Positions 52,916-59,304 of a DNA stretch of 64,000 bases are shown piece after piece. The position numbers and the translations under genes were made by a program. The DNA is from Verrucomicrobiia bacterium (GTDB taxonomy: Bacteria; Verrucomicrobiota; Verrucomicrobiia; Limisphaerales; JAEYXS01), in assembly GCA_036405135.1 (NCBI GenBank), contig DASWYF010000036.1, forward strand, positions 62,001-126,000, read 5' to 3'. The notes beneath the pieces were generated by a model, which saw only the letters and a list, made by a program, of their open reading frames with translations, did not search any database and had not been told where the DNA came from. How positions within the stretch are numbered: position 1 is the stretch's first letter; each line of letters begins with the position of its first letter.

Positions 52916-55228
52916 TTACGGCACTTTCAGGAGCATGAAGGAGTCGAGTTCGGTACCGCCTTCCCTGCCCTTCACATCGATGTTCAGGGTGCCGGTGGTG
53001 AGGGGCATGTTCGTGCCTACGGCGCGCCAGGTCCAGAGGTTCGTGGTGTGGGGGACAGACCAGAGGTAGTTCGAGCCGCCGTTGATGGAGAGGAAGAAGC
53101 TGTCGGAATTACCATTCTGCGCGCGGGTACGACCGAGCAGGAGGTAGTTGCCGTTCGCGTAGATAGGAATCTGGTAGTTCGCGATGTTCGTGGCTTGGTT
53201 GCTGCCGAAGGGTGAGGTGAGCGAATTACCGGTGACAGCGTTCACGTTGTTCGTGAGGACAAAGCCTGAATAAGACTCGGGCGAGAGCGAGGGTGCTTTC
53301 GCGGTGCTCGGGCGGTTCAGCCAGAGGTAATCGAGCTTGGCATTAGCCTCGCGAGCGTAGAGGCGCAAGGTGTGAGTGCCGGGGGTGAGATAGAAGCGGA
53401 TCATCGGGCGCAAAGGACCGAAGGTGACGGGCTGAAATTCCCAACGGCCGCGCACATGCCAATCCACCATGGTGCCGCCATCGAGCTGCACATAGAAGCT
53501 GTCATCCGTGCCCGCGACGGAATGCGTGGAGCCGCCGAGGGCGTAGTCGGAAGCGTAGTCTACATTGAAGGTCCATTGCGCGTAGTTCGTGCTGCCGGTG
53601 ATGACGGAGCTGGAGAGATAGGAGCCGAACGGGCGCTTGGCATCGGTGGTCAAGGCCATCGCACCGGAGCGTGTGGCGGTGGCGGGCTTGAACATGAGGC
53701 CGGTCATCTTGAGCGCGCCATCGAGTGTCGGGGTGTTGAACTCGCATTGCGTGCGATAGAGGCGCAGCGTGGATGGTGGCGGGTTGATGGGATTGCCGTT
53801 CGCATCCAAGCGTGGGGCATCGCGATAGGCGGGCAAGGTTTCCCAGCGCAGATAGTAATGTTGATCCGCGTAAGCCAAACCGCCGGAGCGCAGGCGCCGC
53901 ACGCCCATGGAATCACCGTCATGCGTGTAATTGATCTCGGGTGTGCTGCTGTCGAAGTAGGCGTTCGGCGAGGTGGGCGTGTTCGCAGATGTGTAGGAGG
54001 CGGTGTTCGGGAAGGTGATCAGGACTTTGCGCAGGAGCATTTCATCCAACACATAGGGGCCACTGTTCGTATCGGTGACGCCTGCGGCGGTGACCATGGA
54101 GACGCTGACGGTAGCAAGGCCATCGAGAGGATCATCCGCGCTGAAGGTATTCCCCACGCTGCCGCCGGGCGGCAGGCTGCCACCGCCAGTGAACTCCCAA
54201 CGCATGGAGGACGTAGTGAGTTTCACGATGTTCCATACATTCGATCCGGCGATGGGTCGCGCGGCATAGACCTGTGATTTCCCGGCGCTGTCGTACTTGT
54301 GATACGCCACGAGCGGCACGCCATCGCGATCAAAGGAGAGTTTCGGCTGGCCATTCAAGAGACCACCGAGCTGCGGGACGTTATCAATCGTCGTGAGCGA
54401 CTGGCTGGGCGTCACAGGCAAGGTCACGGCGCGACCAAAGGCATCCGTCCAGTTCGTGAAGTTTGAGGTGCGCATGTAGGAGAGGCGATAGTTGCTGTCC
54501 GCACTCGTCGTGCCGCGCCACACCCAGAGGCAATGCACGTAACCGCCGTTCACCACGAAGTTCGGATACACGCTGTAATTGCCCGTCCAGTTGAACACGG
54601 CGGCACCACCCGTCGCATGGGCGAAGGTCTTGGGTGATGGAGAATATCTGAGCAGATGCCAGTTGCCCGATGCGTTACCCGTATGATTGCGATAGGAGAA
54701 GATGAACTCTTCTTTCGGTCCGAGGAAGAACCCGGGATACGTGGTGTCATTCTCCGTGGACGTGTTCACGAGCGTGGTGAGCTTGGTCATGAAGCCGTTG
54801 GTGAATTGCGAGGCTGATGTGACCGGCGAACTGGAGCGCCAGTAATTCATCGGGTTACGATGAAGGTTGCCGGAGAGGTGCAGGTAGCCGAGCGAATCCG
54901 TGGTGAGCGTGAGGTAATTGTGACTGTCCCAGCCCACGGTGGAGTTCAGCGCCACCTTGTACCATTGCAGGGAATTCATGTTCCGCGCGGCGAGCGTCAC
55001 CTGTCGATACTGGTTGTAGTAAGCGGCGATCTGCACATCCTTCAAGGTGAGGAAGGAAAACCCGACAGAATGCCCCGACCACGCGGGATCGATATCCAAC
55101 GCCGCACCTTTCGCCAAGGGATCGTTAGGGAAATCGTCATTAGCGGCACCGTGGGTGATGCGCGGGATGACGAGAGCAAAAAGCAATGATGCGAGGCCAA
55201 AGTAGCGGGAAACACAAGGAATCGTCAT
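52916..55228 (-). CDS. Large secreted BNR-repeat protein with two C-terminal binding-like modules
   Basis: A 770-aa exported protein (signal peptide MTIPCVSRYFGLASLLFALV). The first about 510 residues resemble BNR_4-type seven-bladed propellers: GYLHLSGNLHRNPMNYWRSS, PEFIFSYR-like EEFIFSYRNHTGNASGNWHL, GGYVHCLWVWRG, PKLSFDRDGVPLVAYHKYD. Some relatives are polysaccharide lyases (PL24/PL25-type) or sialidase-like proteins. Two tandem jelly-roll-like modules follow (about 530-645 and 650-770), each with a FYVQLDGG or FFLSINGG core near its middle, likely carbohydrate binding. Catalytic residues cannot be assigned. It stands alone on the minus strand. Confidence 0.75.
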   Translation of the reverse strand: MTIPCVSRYFGLASLLFALVIPRITHGAANDDFPNDPLAKGAALDIDPAWSGHSVGFSFLTLKDVQIAAYYNQYRQVTLAARNMNSLQWYKVALNSTVGWDSHNYLTLTTDSLGYLHLSGNLHRNPMNYWRSSSPVTSASQFTNGFMTKLTTLVNTSTENDTTYPGFFLGPKEEFIFSYRNHTGNASGNWHLLRYSPSPKTFAHATGGAAVFNWTGNYSVYPNFVVNGGYVHCLWVWRGTTSADSNYRLSYMRTSNFTNWTDAFGRAVTLPVTPSQSLTTIDNVPQLGGLLNGQPKLSFDRDGVPLVAYHKYDSAGKSQVYAARPIAGSNVWNIVKLTTSSMRWEFTGGGSLPPGGSVGNTFSADDPLDGLATVSVSMVTAAGVTDTNSGPYVLDEMLLRKVLITFPNTASYTSANTPTSPNAYFDSSTPEINYTHDGDSMGVRRLRSGGLAYADQHYYLRWETLPAYRDAPRLDANGNPINPPPSTLRLYRTQCEFNTPTLDGALKMTGLMFKPATATRSGAMALTTDAKRPFGSYLSSSVITGSTNYAQWTFNVDYASDYALGGSTHSVAGTDDSFYVQLDGGTMVDWHVRGRWEFQPVTFGPLRPMIRFYLTPGTHTLRLYAREANAKLDYLWLNRPSTAKAPSLSPESYSGFVLTNNVNAVTGNSLTSPFGSNQATNIANYQIPIYANGNYLLLGRTRAQNGNSDSFFLSINGGSNYLWSVPHTTNLWTWRAVGTNMPLTTGTLNIDVKGREGGTELDSFMLLKVP

Positions 55229-55544
55229 AATCAGCAGTTAGGTTTACTGTGGTTAACGCCCCATCATTTCAAATGATGCGACGGCACGACGTCGGCTGGC
55301 CAAGATTCGAAGAGATAAACGACGATCTTCCGAGCCAGGATAGCCGATAGATAAACTACAAGTGGTTACGGCAGGAAGGTAGCAGAGGTTCGAGAAAAAG
55401 CCAGACCGACACCCAACTTGGGAGCATCAACATGCGCCCTCACCAAAAGGGCCCGCGTTTCCCTTCTTGCGTCGGTTTTGAGACGTTGCTATCCATCGTC
55501 TCTTAATTGAGACGGTTGCAACCCCGTCCAGACTTTTACGTAAG
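55229..55544. other. 316-nt gap upstream of the lipid-head-group-like operon
   Basis: No gene is seen. It divides the minus-strand BNR gene from the plus-strand operon and contains the palindrome at 55497-55514. No clear sigma-70 promoter stands out. Confidence 0.5.
55480..55519 (+). promoter_or_regulatory. Palindrome/operator-like GAGACG repeats upstream of the 2OG oxygenase operon
   Basis: CGTCTCTTAATTGAGACG (55497-55514) is a perfect 18-nt palindrome 30 nt before the first start codon of the operon. A further GAGACGTTGC (55480-55489) repeats its right half GAGACGGTTGC (55509-55519). This looks like a repressor site or a leader hairpin. Confidence 0.45.
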
Positions 55545-56288
55545 ATGAACGACATCGGTTCCTTGATCGATCAGGCCTGCGCGAAGCAGGACATGAACAA
55601 GCTGCGTCAGGCCTATCTGGCCCAGGACGAATTCGTGGTGGTGGAAAACTTCCTGCCGCCCGAGGCGATGCAGCTTTGGGATGCGCAGCTCGATCCGCTG
55701 AAACCGCTGATCCATCGTAACTACATCCCGAAGCACAAAAAAGGTGGCAGCGTCTCCTACGGTCAGGTGGCGGAGAAGGCTCCGGCGATGACCGCGATCT
55801 ATCATCAGCCGAAGTTCATCGAGTTCCTGCAAAAGCTCGTCAACGAGAAGATCAAGGAATGTCCTGAATCTGACCCGCATCGTTGCGCGCTCTACTCTTA
55901 CACGGAGGAAGGCGATCACATCGGCTGGCATTACGACACGTCGTATTACAAGGACCGTCGCTGGACGATTCTCGTAGGTTTCCAAGACACGTCCACTTCC
56001 CGCCTGCTCTGCCACTTGCACACGCGGAACAAGGGTCATGAAGTCGAGAAGCTGGAGTTGCAGGTGAAGCCCGGCACCCTCGTAGTCTTCAACGGTGACA
56101 AAGTCTGGCACTCGGTGACGCCGATCAAGGCGAACGAGCATCGCTACATCATCTCCATGCAATACGTGACGAATGGCGACATGAATCCGTTCATGCGCTT
56201 CGTCTCGAACATGAAGGACGCGATCGCTTACTTCGGCTTCAAGGGCGTCTTCGCCGGGAAGTCTGCGGGTAACACCGCCCGTAATTGA
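55545..56288 (+). CDS. 2-oxoglutarate/Fe(II)-dependent dioxygenase
   Basis: A 247-aa cytoplasmic oxygenase with the double-stranded beta-helix fold: iron ligands HxD in GWHYDTSYY (His129, Asp131) and distal His189 in VWHSVTP, and 2OG-binding Arg200 in EHRYIISMQY. The prolyl-4-hydroxylase-like sequence VVVENFLPPEAM is typical of the N-terminal part. The substrate is unknown. It is the first gene of an operon: its stop overlaps the next start (TTGA), so the product may act on the same compound as the CDP-alcohol phosphotransferase. Confidence 0.9.
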   Translation: MNDIGSLIDQACAKQDMNKLRQAYLAQDEFVVVENFLPPEAMQLWDAQLDPLKPLIHRNYIPKHKKGGSVSYGQVAEKAPAMTAIYHQPKFIEFLQKLVNEKIKECPESDPHRCALYSYTEEGDHIGWHYDTSYYKDRRWTILVGFQDTSTSRLLCHLHTRNKGHEVEKLELQVKPGTLVVFNGDKVWHSVTPIKANEHRYIISMQYVTNGDMNPFMRFVSNMKDAIAYFGFKGVFAGKSAGNTARN

Positions 56289-57394
56289 GCACGCCCTCAC
56301 CCATCAAGTTTCCGGCCCTGCTGATCTGCGAACCGCAGACGGCCGGGCTGAAAATCGCCGCCCTCACGCTGCTGGACCGCCTCGTCGTAGCCACGCATCG
56401 TGCGGGTGCGGGACCGATCACCATTGTGTGCGCTGGTGAAGTGCCTGCTTTGAAACGCGCGAAGGCGTTGGATATTCCCGTGACGGTGGTAAAAGAAATC
56501 CCCGAGGTGCGAACAACCTCGCTCGTCGCCACGACCTCACTCCATGTGCAAACCGCGGATGTGAAACGCCTCATCCAAGAAGGCGGACACCTCCTCACGA
56601 AAGACGGGACGCCGTTGCCGATTGGATTGTTACCCGCGCTCAGGCAATCGCTACCTGAGGAGTTGAACAAGCTCACGCGCATTACCGCGCAAGGTGTGGC
56701 GTATGCGGTGACGGATGATACGAGTGCAAAGGTGGCCGAGAAAGCACTCTGGGCCTCACTGACGAGTTCCGCAGATGGTTTGGTGGATAAGTTCTTCAAT
56801 CGCCCGTGTGGCCGACCGCTCTCGAAGCTGCTCATCCACACGCCCATCACGCCGAACATGGTTTCGATCATATCGATCCTCACCGGTGTGATCGCCGCTC
56901 TGTTCTTCGCGCAGGGAGACAGCCGCTCCATCATCATCGGCGCAATCCTCTTCCAGATCTCCGCCATCATCGATTGTGTGGATGGCGATATCGCGCGCAG
57001 TGTTTTCAAGGAATCACCGCTCGGCAAGTGGCTGGATCTCGCGGGTGATCAGGTGGTGCACATCTCGGTCTTCGCGTGCATCGCCATCGGCCTCATCCGC
57101 ACGGAGCAAACGGCTTATGGGACATGGCTCGGTTTAAGTGCGGTGCTAGGGGCGATTCTGTCCTTCGTAGTGATCGTGCGTGGCATGCGTTATCCGCCGG
57201 AAGATCGCAATCAGATGCTCCAGAAGCTCATCGACTCCGCCACGAACCGTGATTTCTCCGTGCTCGTATTCATCCTCGCGTGTTTCCAAGGGCTGGAATG
57301 GTTCCTGTGGATGACCGCCATCGGCAGTCATGTGTTCTGGATAGTCGCCCTCGCGCTGCAACCTTCGCGTCCGCTCCAGCCTGCTTCGCGATGA
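56285..57394 (+). CDS. CDP-alcohol phosphotransferase with N-terminal nucleotidyltransferase-like part
   Basis: A 369-aa membrane protein. The C-terminal half has the complete family motif in order: Asp230, Asp233-Gly, Ala237-Arg238, Gly247, Asp251 and Asp255, with several membrane segments. It transfers a phospho-alcohol from a CDP-alcohol to an acceptor. Residues 1 to about 150 (ALLICEPQTAGLKIAALTLL, ITIVCAGEVPAL) look like a degraded nucleotidyltransferase domain, and LVDKFFNRPCGRPLSKLL with TPITPNMVSIISI follows, an arrangement like the IPCT-DIPPS fusion of di-inositol phosphate synthesis. The start is TTG at 56285, overlapping the upstream stop. The acceptor is unknown. Confidence 0.88.
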   Translation: MSTPSPIKFPALLICEPQTAGLKIAALTLLDRLVVATHRAGAGPITIVCAGEVPALKRAKALDIPVTVVKEIPEVRTTSLVATTSLHVQTADVKRLIQEGGHLLTKDGTPLPIGLLPALRQSLPEELNKLTRITAQGVAYAVTDDTSAKVAEKALWASLTSSADGLVDKFFNRPCGRPLSKLLIHTPITPNMVSIISILTGVIAALFFAQGDSRSIIIGAILFQISAIIDCVDGDIARSVFKESPLGKWLDLAGDQVVHISVFACIAIGLIRTEQTAYGTWLGLSAVLGAILSFVVIVRGMRYPPEDRNQMLQKLIDSATNRDFSVLVFILACFQGLEWFLWMTAIGSHVFWIVALALQPSRPLQPASR

Positions 57395-58404
57395 AAGCGC
57401 TCTGGAAAACGCTGGCCCTGATCCTCGGCCTCGCCTTTCTCGGGTGGTATCTTTCCAAGACGGATCTGAACGCCGTCTGGACTTCACTCAAGACACTCGG
57501 CTGGCTGGCTCCGATCGCGCTCGTTCCGTATTTCATCGTCTATATTTTCGATTGCTACGGCTGGCGTTTCACCTTTCCGAAAGAATTGAAGGTGCCGTTC
57601 TGGACACTCTTCCGCGTGCGCTGGACCGGTGAAGCGATGAACAACATCGTCCCCTCCGCCTATGTCGGTGGTGAAGCTCTGAAGATTTATCTGCTCAAGA
57701 AACATGGCGTGACGGGCAATGCCGCCACCTCCAGCGCAGTGGTATCGAAAACCGCACAAACCGTCGCGCAAGTCCTCTTCATCACGCTCGCCGCCATCGC
57801 CTTCATGTATGTGGGCGGTGACAATCCGGGCTTACGCGCCGGCATGATGGTCGTGCTTATCGGTGGTGTGCTGGTGGTTGCCGGACTGCTCTGGGTTCAA
57901 CGGCGCGGCATCTTCAGCACGGCCTTGCTCATCACAAACACCTTGGGTCTGAAACTCGCCGTCATCGAAAAGAACCGTGAGAAGATCCAAGCCGTTGATG
58001 GCACCATCACCACGTTCTATCGCGAACATCGCCCGCGTTTCTACGCTTCCACCACGTCCTATCTCGGCGGTTGGCTCATGGATACGATGGAGATTTATCT
58101 CGTCGCGCATCTGCTCGGCATGCCAATCACCATTCCGCAAGCCATCGCTGTGGAAGCCTTCACCAGCGTAGCGAAAATGCTCGGCATGTGGGTGCCGGGG
58201 TCCATTGGCGTGCAGGAGTCCGGCATCATCATGCTCGGCAAGATGGCGGGCTTGCCGGAGACCTTGTGCATCGCCTACGCCCTGCTCCGCCGCGCCCGTG
58301 AAGTCATCTTCGTCCTCATCGGCTGGCTCCTCTTTTATACGGAAGAAGCGAGTCTCAAAGCCTTGAAAGAACGAGCAGAAGCCGACCCCACTTCCACCCC
58401 ATGA
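57391..58404 (+). CDS. Flippase-like membrane protein (lysylphosphatidylglycerol synthase transmembrane family)
   Basis: A 337-aa integral membrane protein of the UPF0104/LPG-synthase-TM family, with about seven to eight membrane segments: ALILGLAFLGWYLS, LAPIALVPYFIVYIFDCYGW, EAMNNIVPSAYVGGEALKIY (the conserved helix-loop), MVVLIGGVLVVAGLLW, MLGMWVPGSIGVQESGI and EVIFVLIGWLLFY. Members move lipid-linked molecules across membranes or lack a known substrate. The ATG at 57391 overlaps the previous stop (ATGA), so the two genes are coupled; longer frames upstream lie inside the previous gene. Confidence 0.88.
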   Translation: MKALWKTLALILGLAFLGWYLSKTDLNAVWTSLKTLGWLAPIALVPYFIVYIFDCYGWRFTFPKELKVPFWTLFRVRWTGEAMNNIVPSAYVGGEALKIYLLKKHGVTGNAATSSAVVSKTAQTVAQVLFITLAAIAFMYVGGDNPGLRAGMMVVLIGGVLVVAGLLWVQRRGIFSTALLITNTLGLKLAVIEKNREKIQAVDGTITTFYREHRPRFYASTTSYLGGWLMDTMEIYLVAHLLGMPITIPQAIAVEAFTSVAKMLGMWVPGSIGVQESGIIMLGKMAGLPETLCIAYALLRRAREVIFVLIGWLLFYTEEASLKALKERAEADPTSTP

Positions 58405-58474
58405 TTTGCTTATCCATGAGATTCCACTCCCGCAAATCAAGACCGCATCATATGCAAATTGAGCGGCAAATGTT

Positions 58475-58510
58475 CCCCCTCTCCCCAAGGGAGAGGGCCG
58501 GGGTGAGGGG
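58475..58510. repeat. REP-like palindromic repeat, copy 3
   Basis: CCCCCTCTCCCC facing GGGAGAGGG, followed by CCGGGGTGAGGGG. It is nearly identical to the copy at 26119-26157 and lies in the 156-nt gap between the flippase-like and nucleotidyltransferase genes. Confidence 0.8.
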
Positions 58511-58560
58511 AAAGGAACCTCACAAAAACCAATAGCCTGCCCTTCGATCTAAGTAATACC

Positions 58561-59304
58561 ATGAACGCAATCCTCTACGTTGCCGGTCGTGCTGCCCGTC
58601 TCGGAGCCGCTACAGGTGGCCGTCATAAAGTGCTGTTGGAGTTCGGCGGCAAGAGCCTGCTGGAACGCCACATCATGCACCTCGCACAACTCGGCGTGCC
58701 ACAACTCACCATCGTGACCGGTCATAATCGCGAGCAGCTTCAAGCCTCGTTCCCTGCTCTGCAAAAGAAATACGGTGTGGAGATCACCGAGTATTACAAT
58801 GCCGCCTTCCTCGAAGGCAGCGCGCTCAGCATGCACGCTTCCCTACCCGCTCTCGAAGCCGTGAAGGATCGCGTACTCATCATGGATGGCGATGTGCTCT
58901 ATGACATCCGCATGTTGCAAGCGCTCGTGAACTCACCAGAACGCACCGCGCTGCTCGTAGATCGCAACTATTCCACCGCCGACGATGATCCGGTGCTGGT
59001 GCCCATGCGCAAAGGTCGCCCGTTTGATTTCGTGAAAAAGTGGACCGGTGAAGCCGACACCATCGGCGAATCCATCGGCTTCTTTAAGATCGCTGCCGCC
59101 GATCTCCCCGCGCTCATCCGCGAAACCAAAGGCCGCGAGACCGGTCCCAGTCGCGCTGATTCCTACGATGACGTCCTGCGCGTCCTCGTGAAAGCGGGCC
59201 AGTTCGGAGCCGTCGATGTCACCGGCATCCCGTGGACCGAAGTCGATTTCCCGCAAGACTTGGAATACGCGAGGGACACGATCTTGCCGAAGTTGGTGGC
59301 GTAA
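58561..59304 (+). CDS. Nucleotidyltransferase (phosphocholine/inositol-phosphate cytidylyltransferase type)
   Basis: A 247-aa GT-A-like nucleotidyltransferase: start MNAILYVAGRAARLG, HKVLLEFGGKSLLERHI (Lys signature), LTIVTGHNREQL, ITEYYNAAFLEGSALSMHAS, VLIMDGDVLYD (metal Asp), and IPWTEVDFPQDLEYAR near the end, with the Asp-Phe motif of sugar/alcohol phosphate cytidylyltransferases. It should make a CDP- or similar nucleotide-activated head group. A repeat-containing 156-nt gap separates it from the upstream coupled genes, so it might have its own promoter. It fits as the enzyme that supplies substrate to the CDP-alcohol phosphotransferase; that link is inference. Confidence 0.85.
   Translation: MNAILYVAGRAARLGAATGGRHKVLLEFGGKSLLERHIMHLAQLGVPQLTIVTGHNREQLQASFPALQKKYGVEITEYYNAAFLEGSALSMHASLPALEAVKDRVLIMDGDVLYDIRMLQALVNSPERTALLVDRNYSTADDDPVLVPMRKGRPFDFVKKWTGEADTIGESIGFFKIAAADLPALIRETKGRETGPSRADSYDDVLRVLVKAGQFGAVDVTGIPWTEVDFPQDLEYARDTILPKLVA

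Follow-up and report, generated by a model that had tools for sequence, protein, structure and literature searches.

A candidate operon for tailoring aminoethylphosphonate lipids in a Verrucomicrobiia bacterium

Described phosphonate systems and the verrucomicrobial operon

Phosphonyl tailoring (Pnt) clusters encode a phosphoenolpyruvate mutase (Ppm) with the motif EDKXXXXXNS fused to a nucleoside triphosphate (NTP) transferase, Ppd, a 2-aminoethylphosphonate (AEP) transaminase (AEPT) and a separate second NTP transferase (Rice et al. 2019, PMC6697681). The same set is found in the genome of a Verrucomicrobiia bacterium from which we analysed a window of 64,000 nucleotides (assembly GCA_036405135.1, contig DASWYF010000036.1, positions 62,001 to 126,000), and here we describe an operon of this window whose genes are called A to D (Table 1). 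Compared with the Pnt clusters the operon adds a predicted hydroxylase of the BesD family (A), a cytidine diphosphate (CDP)-alcohol phosphotransferase (B) and an HpnL-like flippase (C), with hopanoid genes nearby in other phyla, while in the window's genome the AEP genes are found on a different contig. The operon is a variant of already known phosphonyl-tailoring logic, and we consider it rather probable that it forms the tailoring end of an AEP lipid pathway, in which A hydroxylates AEP or its conjugate.

Other described systems share single traits with this proposal. Bdellovibrio stolpii possesses a 1-hydroxy-2-aminoethylphosphonate sphingolipid, whose hydroxylated AEP head group is the one predicted here, but the organism is different, the lipid is a sphingolipid, and the passages that treat it name no gene for it (Watanabe 2001, in PMC8154272, PMC12366243). 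In Roseomonas, hopanoid-phosphoenolpyruvate mutase hybrid clusters likewise link a hopene cyclase to a mutase gene, and the authors of this Acetobacteraceae survey propose an undiscovered terpene-phosphonate from the linkage (PMC8776678); these clusters belong, however, to other taxa, and the part of the survey devoted to them names no hydroxylase, transferase or mechanism. The 2-oxoglutarate (2OG) oxygenases TmpA (NCBIfam description) and PhnY* (PMC8154272) hydroxylate an aminoethylphosphonate, as predicted for A, but they belong to degradation routes, whereas A is a BesD/HalD-family enzyme found together with genes of synthesis.

An earlier sequence-only reading of this DNA had proposed a head-group pathway led by an Fe/2OG hydroxylase and encoded by four genes on one strand with overlapping junctions. 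The pathway is supported by our analysis; what it lacked was the tie to AEP, since A occurs with mutase genes. The gene arrangement was also found as proposed: all four open reading frames are intact, the A/B and B/C junctions are 4-nt overlaps (TTGA and ATGA) and D follows C after 156 nt. Because a 4-nt overlap joins C and D in the sister genome G001, D is counted as a member of the operon.

Table 1. Features of the operon and its upstream stretch (positions in the window)
Feature	Position	Strand	Remarks
Promoter-proximal stretch, partly conserved in G002 (TTTCCCTTCTTGCGTC...GTTGCTAT.CATCGT)	55465-55514	+	alignment with G002
Gene A: Fe(II)/2OG oxygenase, BesD/HalD family	55545-56288	+	247 aa, ATG start
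Gene B: CDP-alcohol phosphotransferase with truncated nucleotidyltransferase-like N-domain	56285-57394	+	369 aa, TTG start
Gene C: HpnL-like / LPG_synthase_TM flippase-like membrane protein	57391-58404	+	337 aa, ATG start
Gene D: LicC/PntC/IPCT-like cytidylyltransferase	58561-59304	+	247 aa, ATG start

The four genes and their predicted activities

Gene A belongs to the BesD/HalD superfamily, both by its score against the Pfam HalD model (PF23169; E 4.9e-16, 59.3 bits, gathering cut-off 26), next to which 2OG-FeII_Oxy_3 was also matched, and by its BesD-like fold. With the AlphaFold2 (AF2) model of A (pLDDT 88.7), the top Foldseek matches were HalB, HalD and BesD (probability 1.00, TM 0.65-0.71), and the hydroxylase homologue 7jsd was also matched. 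A shares the Pfam HalD domain, and its fold over most of the chain, with the halogenases BesD, HalB, HalD and HalA and their lysine hydroxylase homologue (6nie, 7u6i, 7u6h, 9oer, 7jsd), but the identity is about 13-18% in structural alignments, and A has a phosphonate gene context and a basic motif, IPKHKKGGS, unseen in the alignments of BesD, HalB and HalD. The stretch that holds it (HR..IPKHKKGGS) is conserved in 15 homologues, across which the active-site set H129-x-D131, H189 and R200 is invariant. The HxG metal site of halogenases leaves room for chloride, while HxD points to hydroxylation. A carries HxD and reaches only 30 bits against the BesD-type halogenase model NF042920 (cut-off 450); a halogenase was rejected on the invariant HxD, and A is accordingly predicted to be a hydroxylase, acting on aminoethylphosphonate or its conjugate. 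HalD-family matches in 29 genomes were only the A gene itself, and the A-bearing genomes tested have one such match each, except G152, with none over threshold.

Damaged copies of A were also seen. In the sister genome G001 (L094:1-675, G001:C39) an in-frame deletion of 30 residues takes out the HxD motif; it lies near a contig end, where genuine loss and assembly error are indistinguishable. Candidatus Udaeobacter AEW3 retains a remnant of 106 residues from which the catalytic core is gone (L108:7836-8156, L109:2592-2912). C, D and ppm are kept there, B is apparently complete in L108 and broken in L109, and aept is seen only in L108, since L109 stops within ppd.

Gene B matches CDP-OH_P_transf (PF01066, E 2.2e-13) and is a CDP-alcohol phosphotransferase by its full motif, DCVDGDIAR-x8-GKWLDLAGD, which corresponds to D1xxD2G1xxAR...G2xxxD3xxxD4 and contains the intact DGxxAR reported earlier; residues D230, D233, G234, A237, R238, G247, D251 and D255 are invariant among homologues. 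Its PDB matches are 4mnd and 4o6m (E about 3e-13). The AF2 model (pLDDT 87) has a six-helix membrane core and matches AF2299 (Z 27.8) and IPCT-DIPPS (4mnd, Z 26.4) over the full length, and its N-domain (about residues 6-143) matches IPCT at Z 13.4, so that the resemblance of this part to IPCT-DIPPS, noted in the sequence-only reading, is supported by the predicted structure. AF2299 and IPCT-DIPPS (4o6n, 4mnd; PMC4634129) likewise join an N-terminal nucleotidyltransferase-like domain to a six-helix CDP-alcohol phosphotransferase. Unlike in IPCT-DIPPS, however, the N-domain of B is a nucleotidyltransferase fold shortened to about 140 aa that lacks the catalytic GxGxR/K motif, and the IPCT-DIPPS model NF041135 is matched in its transferase half only (82 bits against 580). 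A full, bifunctional IPCT-DIPPS was therefore rejected, and activation must come from separate genes, that is from D and/or the domain fused to the mutase. The donor pocket of AF2299 is small and hydrophilic, and lipids are not processed by AF2299 or by DIPPS (PMC4634129); the AF2299-like architecture of B suggests a small hydrophilic donor linked to cytidine monophosphate (CMP) or CDP, not CDP-diacylglycerol, and such a pocket would be compatible with CMP-AEP.

Gene C matches Pfam LPG_synthase_TM (PF03706, E 1.6e-35); against the HpnL model TIGR03476 it scores 178.1 bits, below the cut-off of 195.65, and is thus a close relative of HpnL and not a member. Gene D matches NTP_transf_3 (E 6.1e-12), and its best PDB match is PntC-AEPT (6pd1, E 2.6e-9), in which PntC is the AEP cytidylyltransferase that stands alone in Pnt clusters (PMC6697681). 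The expected catalytic residues R13, K23, D109, D111, K159, E227 and D229 are intact and invariant over 20 homologues; by its domain, its triphosphate Arg/Lys and its metal Asp/Glu residues D is a PntC/LicC-type cytidylyltransferase, nearest to PntC, LicC and IPCT. At the amine-binding positions (alignment with residues from PMC6697681) it has the Asp/Asp pair of LicC (D109, D203) in place of the Glu/Glu of Tde-PntC, but Ari-PntC is also LicC-like, and the pair does not decide on a preference for AEP.

In the pathway that we propose, phosphoenolpyruvate would be converted to AEP by the Ppm-cytidylyltransferase fusion, Ppd and AEP transaminase, whose genes lie outside the operon, if their activities are those of their families. 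A would hydroxylate AEP or its conjugate, with C1 as the simplest site and hydroxy-AEP as the result, and D and/or the Ppm-fused domain would turn the phosphonate into a CMP ester with cytidine triphosphate, by analogy with PntC. B would then move the phosphonate from the CMP ester onto a lipid alcohol, and C may help to move the product across or along the membrane.

Phosphonate genes, gene order and rival readings

The AEP genes of the window's genome lie on contig C35 and encode a Ppm-cytidylyltransferase fusion (391 bits, cut-off 320; motif EDKLFPKTNS), Ppd (432 bits, cut-off 312.5) and AEP transaminase (469 bits, cut-off 401). A Ppm with EDKXXXXXNS, Ppd, AEPT and a cytidylyltransferase are thus present in the same genome, as in the Pnt pathway. 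The mutase is present in both sister genomes, and G002 has all three AEP genes on a contig of their own. While ppm and the tailoring genes are on separate contigs in the window's genome, they are clustered in proteobacteria and in G019 and G129, where the order D-C-B-A is divergent from ppm-ppd-aept. In these two genomes and in G045, G026, G087 and G111, B adjoins a phosphoenolpyruvate mutase-NTP transferase fusion, with Ppd and AEPT alongside except in G111. The cluster of G026, which has no A, holds a TauD-family 2OG oxygenase (L055:4994-5998) between C and a divergent D, beside ppm-ppd-aept; its nearest NCBIfam model is TmpA, which acts on trimethyl-AEP. The presence of two distinct oxygenase families in the same position argues for an oxidation step in the pathway. 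A further locus, in G022 (L092:657-3487), has a Ppm fusion and Ppd with no AEPT adjoining, and the phosphonate there may therefore not be AEP.

To describe conservation within the order we used 146 genomes, about 31 of them with a full-length B; the neighbourhoods of 30 of the latter were read and counted. C adjoins B in 27 of the 30, which is beyond chance, one of the other three being cut by a contig end, and D comes after B-C in 16 at an identity of at least 50%, with a divergent D in 3 more. A was found in 5 of the 146 genomes, spanning 3 genera. The expectation that the four genes are kept together in relatives thus held for B-C-D, but A is no constant partner; being so sparse, it is an optional addition to the older B-C-D module. 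This module predates the link to AEP, as many relatives hold it without a mutase. The mutase exceeds its cut-off in all 5 A-bearing genomes against 5 of the 25 genomes with B that lack A (Fisher P about 0.002 on genomes and about 0.03 on genera, calculated by hand with kinship ignored). The A-bearing genomes are draft assemblies, and absence of a mutase from incomplete genomes is weak evidence.

The association is not confined to the order. When GTDB contigs were scanned, A or what remains of it turned up at 17 loci, among them loci of Rokubacteria, Gammaproteobacteria and marine proteobacteria. At most of these loci A is flanked by AEP genes, by D and by a CDP-OH_P gene, often with an HpnL-like gene as well. 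The distant A genes adjoin the same AEP genes in proteobacteria, and often a divergent version in Rokubacteria; in L104-L106 there is a 4-nt overlap between A and D, and D is immediately 5' of ppm. Of 16 A-bearing genomes, counting G001 with its damaged A, 13 have a mutase that scores above the cut-off; the figure for a sample of the phylum is 22 of 387, and no A besides the window's own was found in that sample. The mutases examined all carry EDKXXXXXNS except two from Rokubacteria. Such homologues with EDNxFPKKCS (L137:5279-6154, L097:10980-11822) adjoin a Ppd homologue and NTP transferase domains. In the gammaproteobacterial cluster L174 (G565), A accompanies a ppm-cytidylyltransferase fusion and no match to D was seen, which hints that the fused domain may serve alone.

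Several observations weigh against an AEP lipid as the product of the operon. The AEP genes are unlinked to it in the window's own genome, and the cytidylyltransferase domain fused to Ppm is without the usual GxGxR arginine. G147 carries A and no mutase was found in it, while the mutase homologues of G148 and G149 reach 275-284 bits, with EDNxFPKKCS where other mutases have EDKxxxxxNS. In the proteobacterial clusters, the CDP-OH_P genes share only about 27% identity with B and have no N-domain; family and position, and not orthology, are therefore the basis on which the transfer step is compared. B-C-D occurs without mutase in relatives more than 90% complete (G031, G053, G037, G119, G090), where another donor is needed, and the trees of B and D interleave mutase-bearing and mutase-free genomes, so that a clade of mutase-bearing genomes of their own was rejected. 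B and D, therefore, need not use AEP. These mutase-free relatives also favour a Kennedy-like module, in which the phospho-alcohol used by B-C-D is an ordinary one (phosphoethanolamine, phosphocholine or inositol phosphate), the hydroxylation by A falls on this head group or its lipid, and AEP serves another use; the LicC-like Asp/Asp pair of D and an inositol-phosphate synthase gene near A in Rokubacteria point the same way. We nevertheless find this account unlikely, although it deserves attention, because within the order A occurs only in mutase-bearing genomes and in several lineages it is linked to ppm-ppd-aept, up to the A/D overlap just 5' of ppm.

The product could also be an AEP-bearing solute or glycan, if B makes a soluble or surface phosphodiester. 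The closest relatives of B, AF2299 and IPCT-DIPPS, do not process lipids (PMC4634129), and its model is without the extra helices of the CEPT type, but fold does not reveal the preference for an acceptor, and the flippase-like C next to B and the hopanoid-cluster context in other lineages make a product without lipid quite improbable. A different role for A would be to hydroxylate the lipid acceptor, at a hopanoid side chain or an acyl chain, with the AEP head group left unhydroxylated. The genes do sit in or near hopanoid clusters of proteobacteria and Rokubacteria, and three gammaproteobacterial clusters hold D, ppm, ppd, aept and CDP-OH_P without A, which makes A an optional tailoring enzyme. 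Yet the structures closest to it in fold (BesD, HalB, HalD, HalA) were determined in the presence of small free amino acids and not of lipids, and its basic stretch would suit an anionic phosphonate; we hold hydroxylation of the acceptor to be very unlikely.

Hopanoid context, upstream stretch and possible meaning

In proteobacteria the gene set is embedded among squalene synthase-like, HpnG-like, HpnN, HpnA, HpnL-like and DXS genes, and HpnH is also there where the contig extends far enough. Fourteen loci of one gammaproteobacterial order have enough flank, and in them the mutase is clustered with CDP-OH_P in 14, with HpnA in 13 and with A in 11. Four Rokubacteria have a hopene cyclase about 5 to 15 kb from A on the same contig. 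Three hopanoid-AEP clusters (L166, L167 and L168, from G554, G550 and G551) show no match to A or to the HpnL-like C and keep D, ppm, ppd, aept and CDP-OH_P.

All five A-bearing genomes of the order have a hopene cyclase (680 bits in the window's genome). This gene is the better marker, since the HpnH match of the window's genome is 31% identical to true HpnH and outside any hopanoid cluster. Against a hopanoid acceptor, no hopanoid cluster was seen around the genes in Verrucomicrobiota, and HpnH and hopene cyclase do not track B in the order (each in 24 of 30 genomes with B and 8 of 10 without), so that an argument from co-occurrence within the order was rejected and what speaks for this acceptor is cluster position in other phyla. 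A hopanoid polyol is the leading candidate for the acceptor, because two other lineages have the homologous genes within or close to hopanoid clusters. We therefore put forward, tentatively and with the balance somewhat against it, that this gene set makes phosphonohopanoids in at least three bacterial lineages, that is hopanoid polyols to which 2-aminoethylphosphonate, hydroxylated by a BesD-family enzyme, is joined as an ester, the window holding the verrucomicrobial tailoring operon.

Concerning regulation, an inverted repeat at 55497-55514 (exact 6-bp arms, 6-nt loop), 30 bp 5' of the start codon, had been suggested to control the operon. Its exact arms and its position would suit an operator, but the repeat is not kept in the sister genome G002, although the flanking sequence is, and palindrome-like matches with at most one mismatch arise in 20 of 100 shuffles of the window; the operator was rejected, its chance of being real appearing negligible. 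A GC-rich inverted repeat, CCTCTCCCCAAGGGAGAGG (58478-58496), lies in the gap between C and D; it occurs once within the window and is absent in G001, where C and D overlap. The upstream divergent gene (52916-55228) encodes a BNR_4 repeat protein of 770 residues, for which no relation to the pathway was seen.

The steps leading on to phosphonyl modifications were called unknown in 2019 (PMC6697681), and B is a concrete candidate for the transferase of such a modification. If the acceptor is a hopanoid, the product would be a lipid class with a carbon-phosphorus bond of which we found no description in the literature searched. Hydroxy-AEP is believed to be so widespread in nature that genes for its degradation occur in many bacteria, while its producers are barely known and comprise an amoeba, a predatory bacterium, a Streptomyces intermediate and suggestions based on genomes (PMC8154272, PMC12366243). 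With a gene marker for its synthesis, and with the oxygenase family named, the question of which organisms produce hydroxy-AEP could be put to the test, and the operon would offer a lead, at the level of genes, to the bacteria that make hydroxylated AEP lipids.

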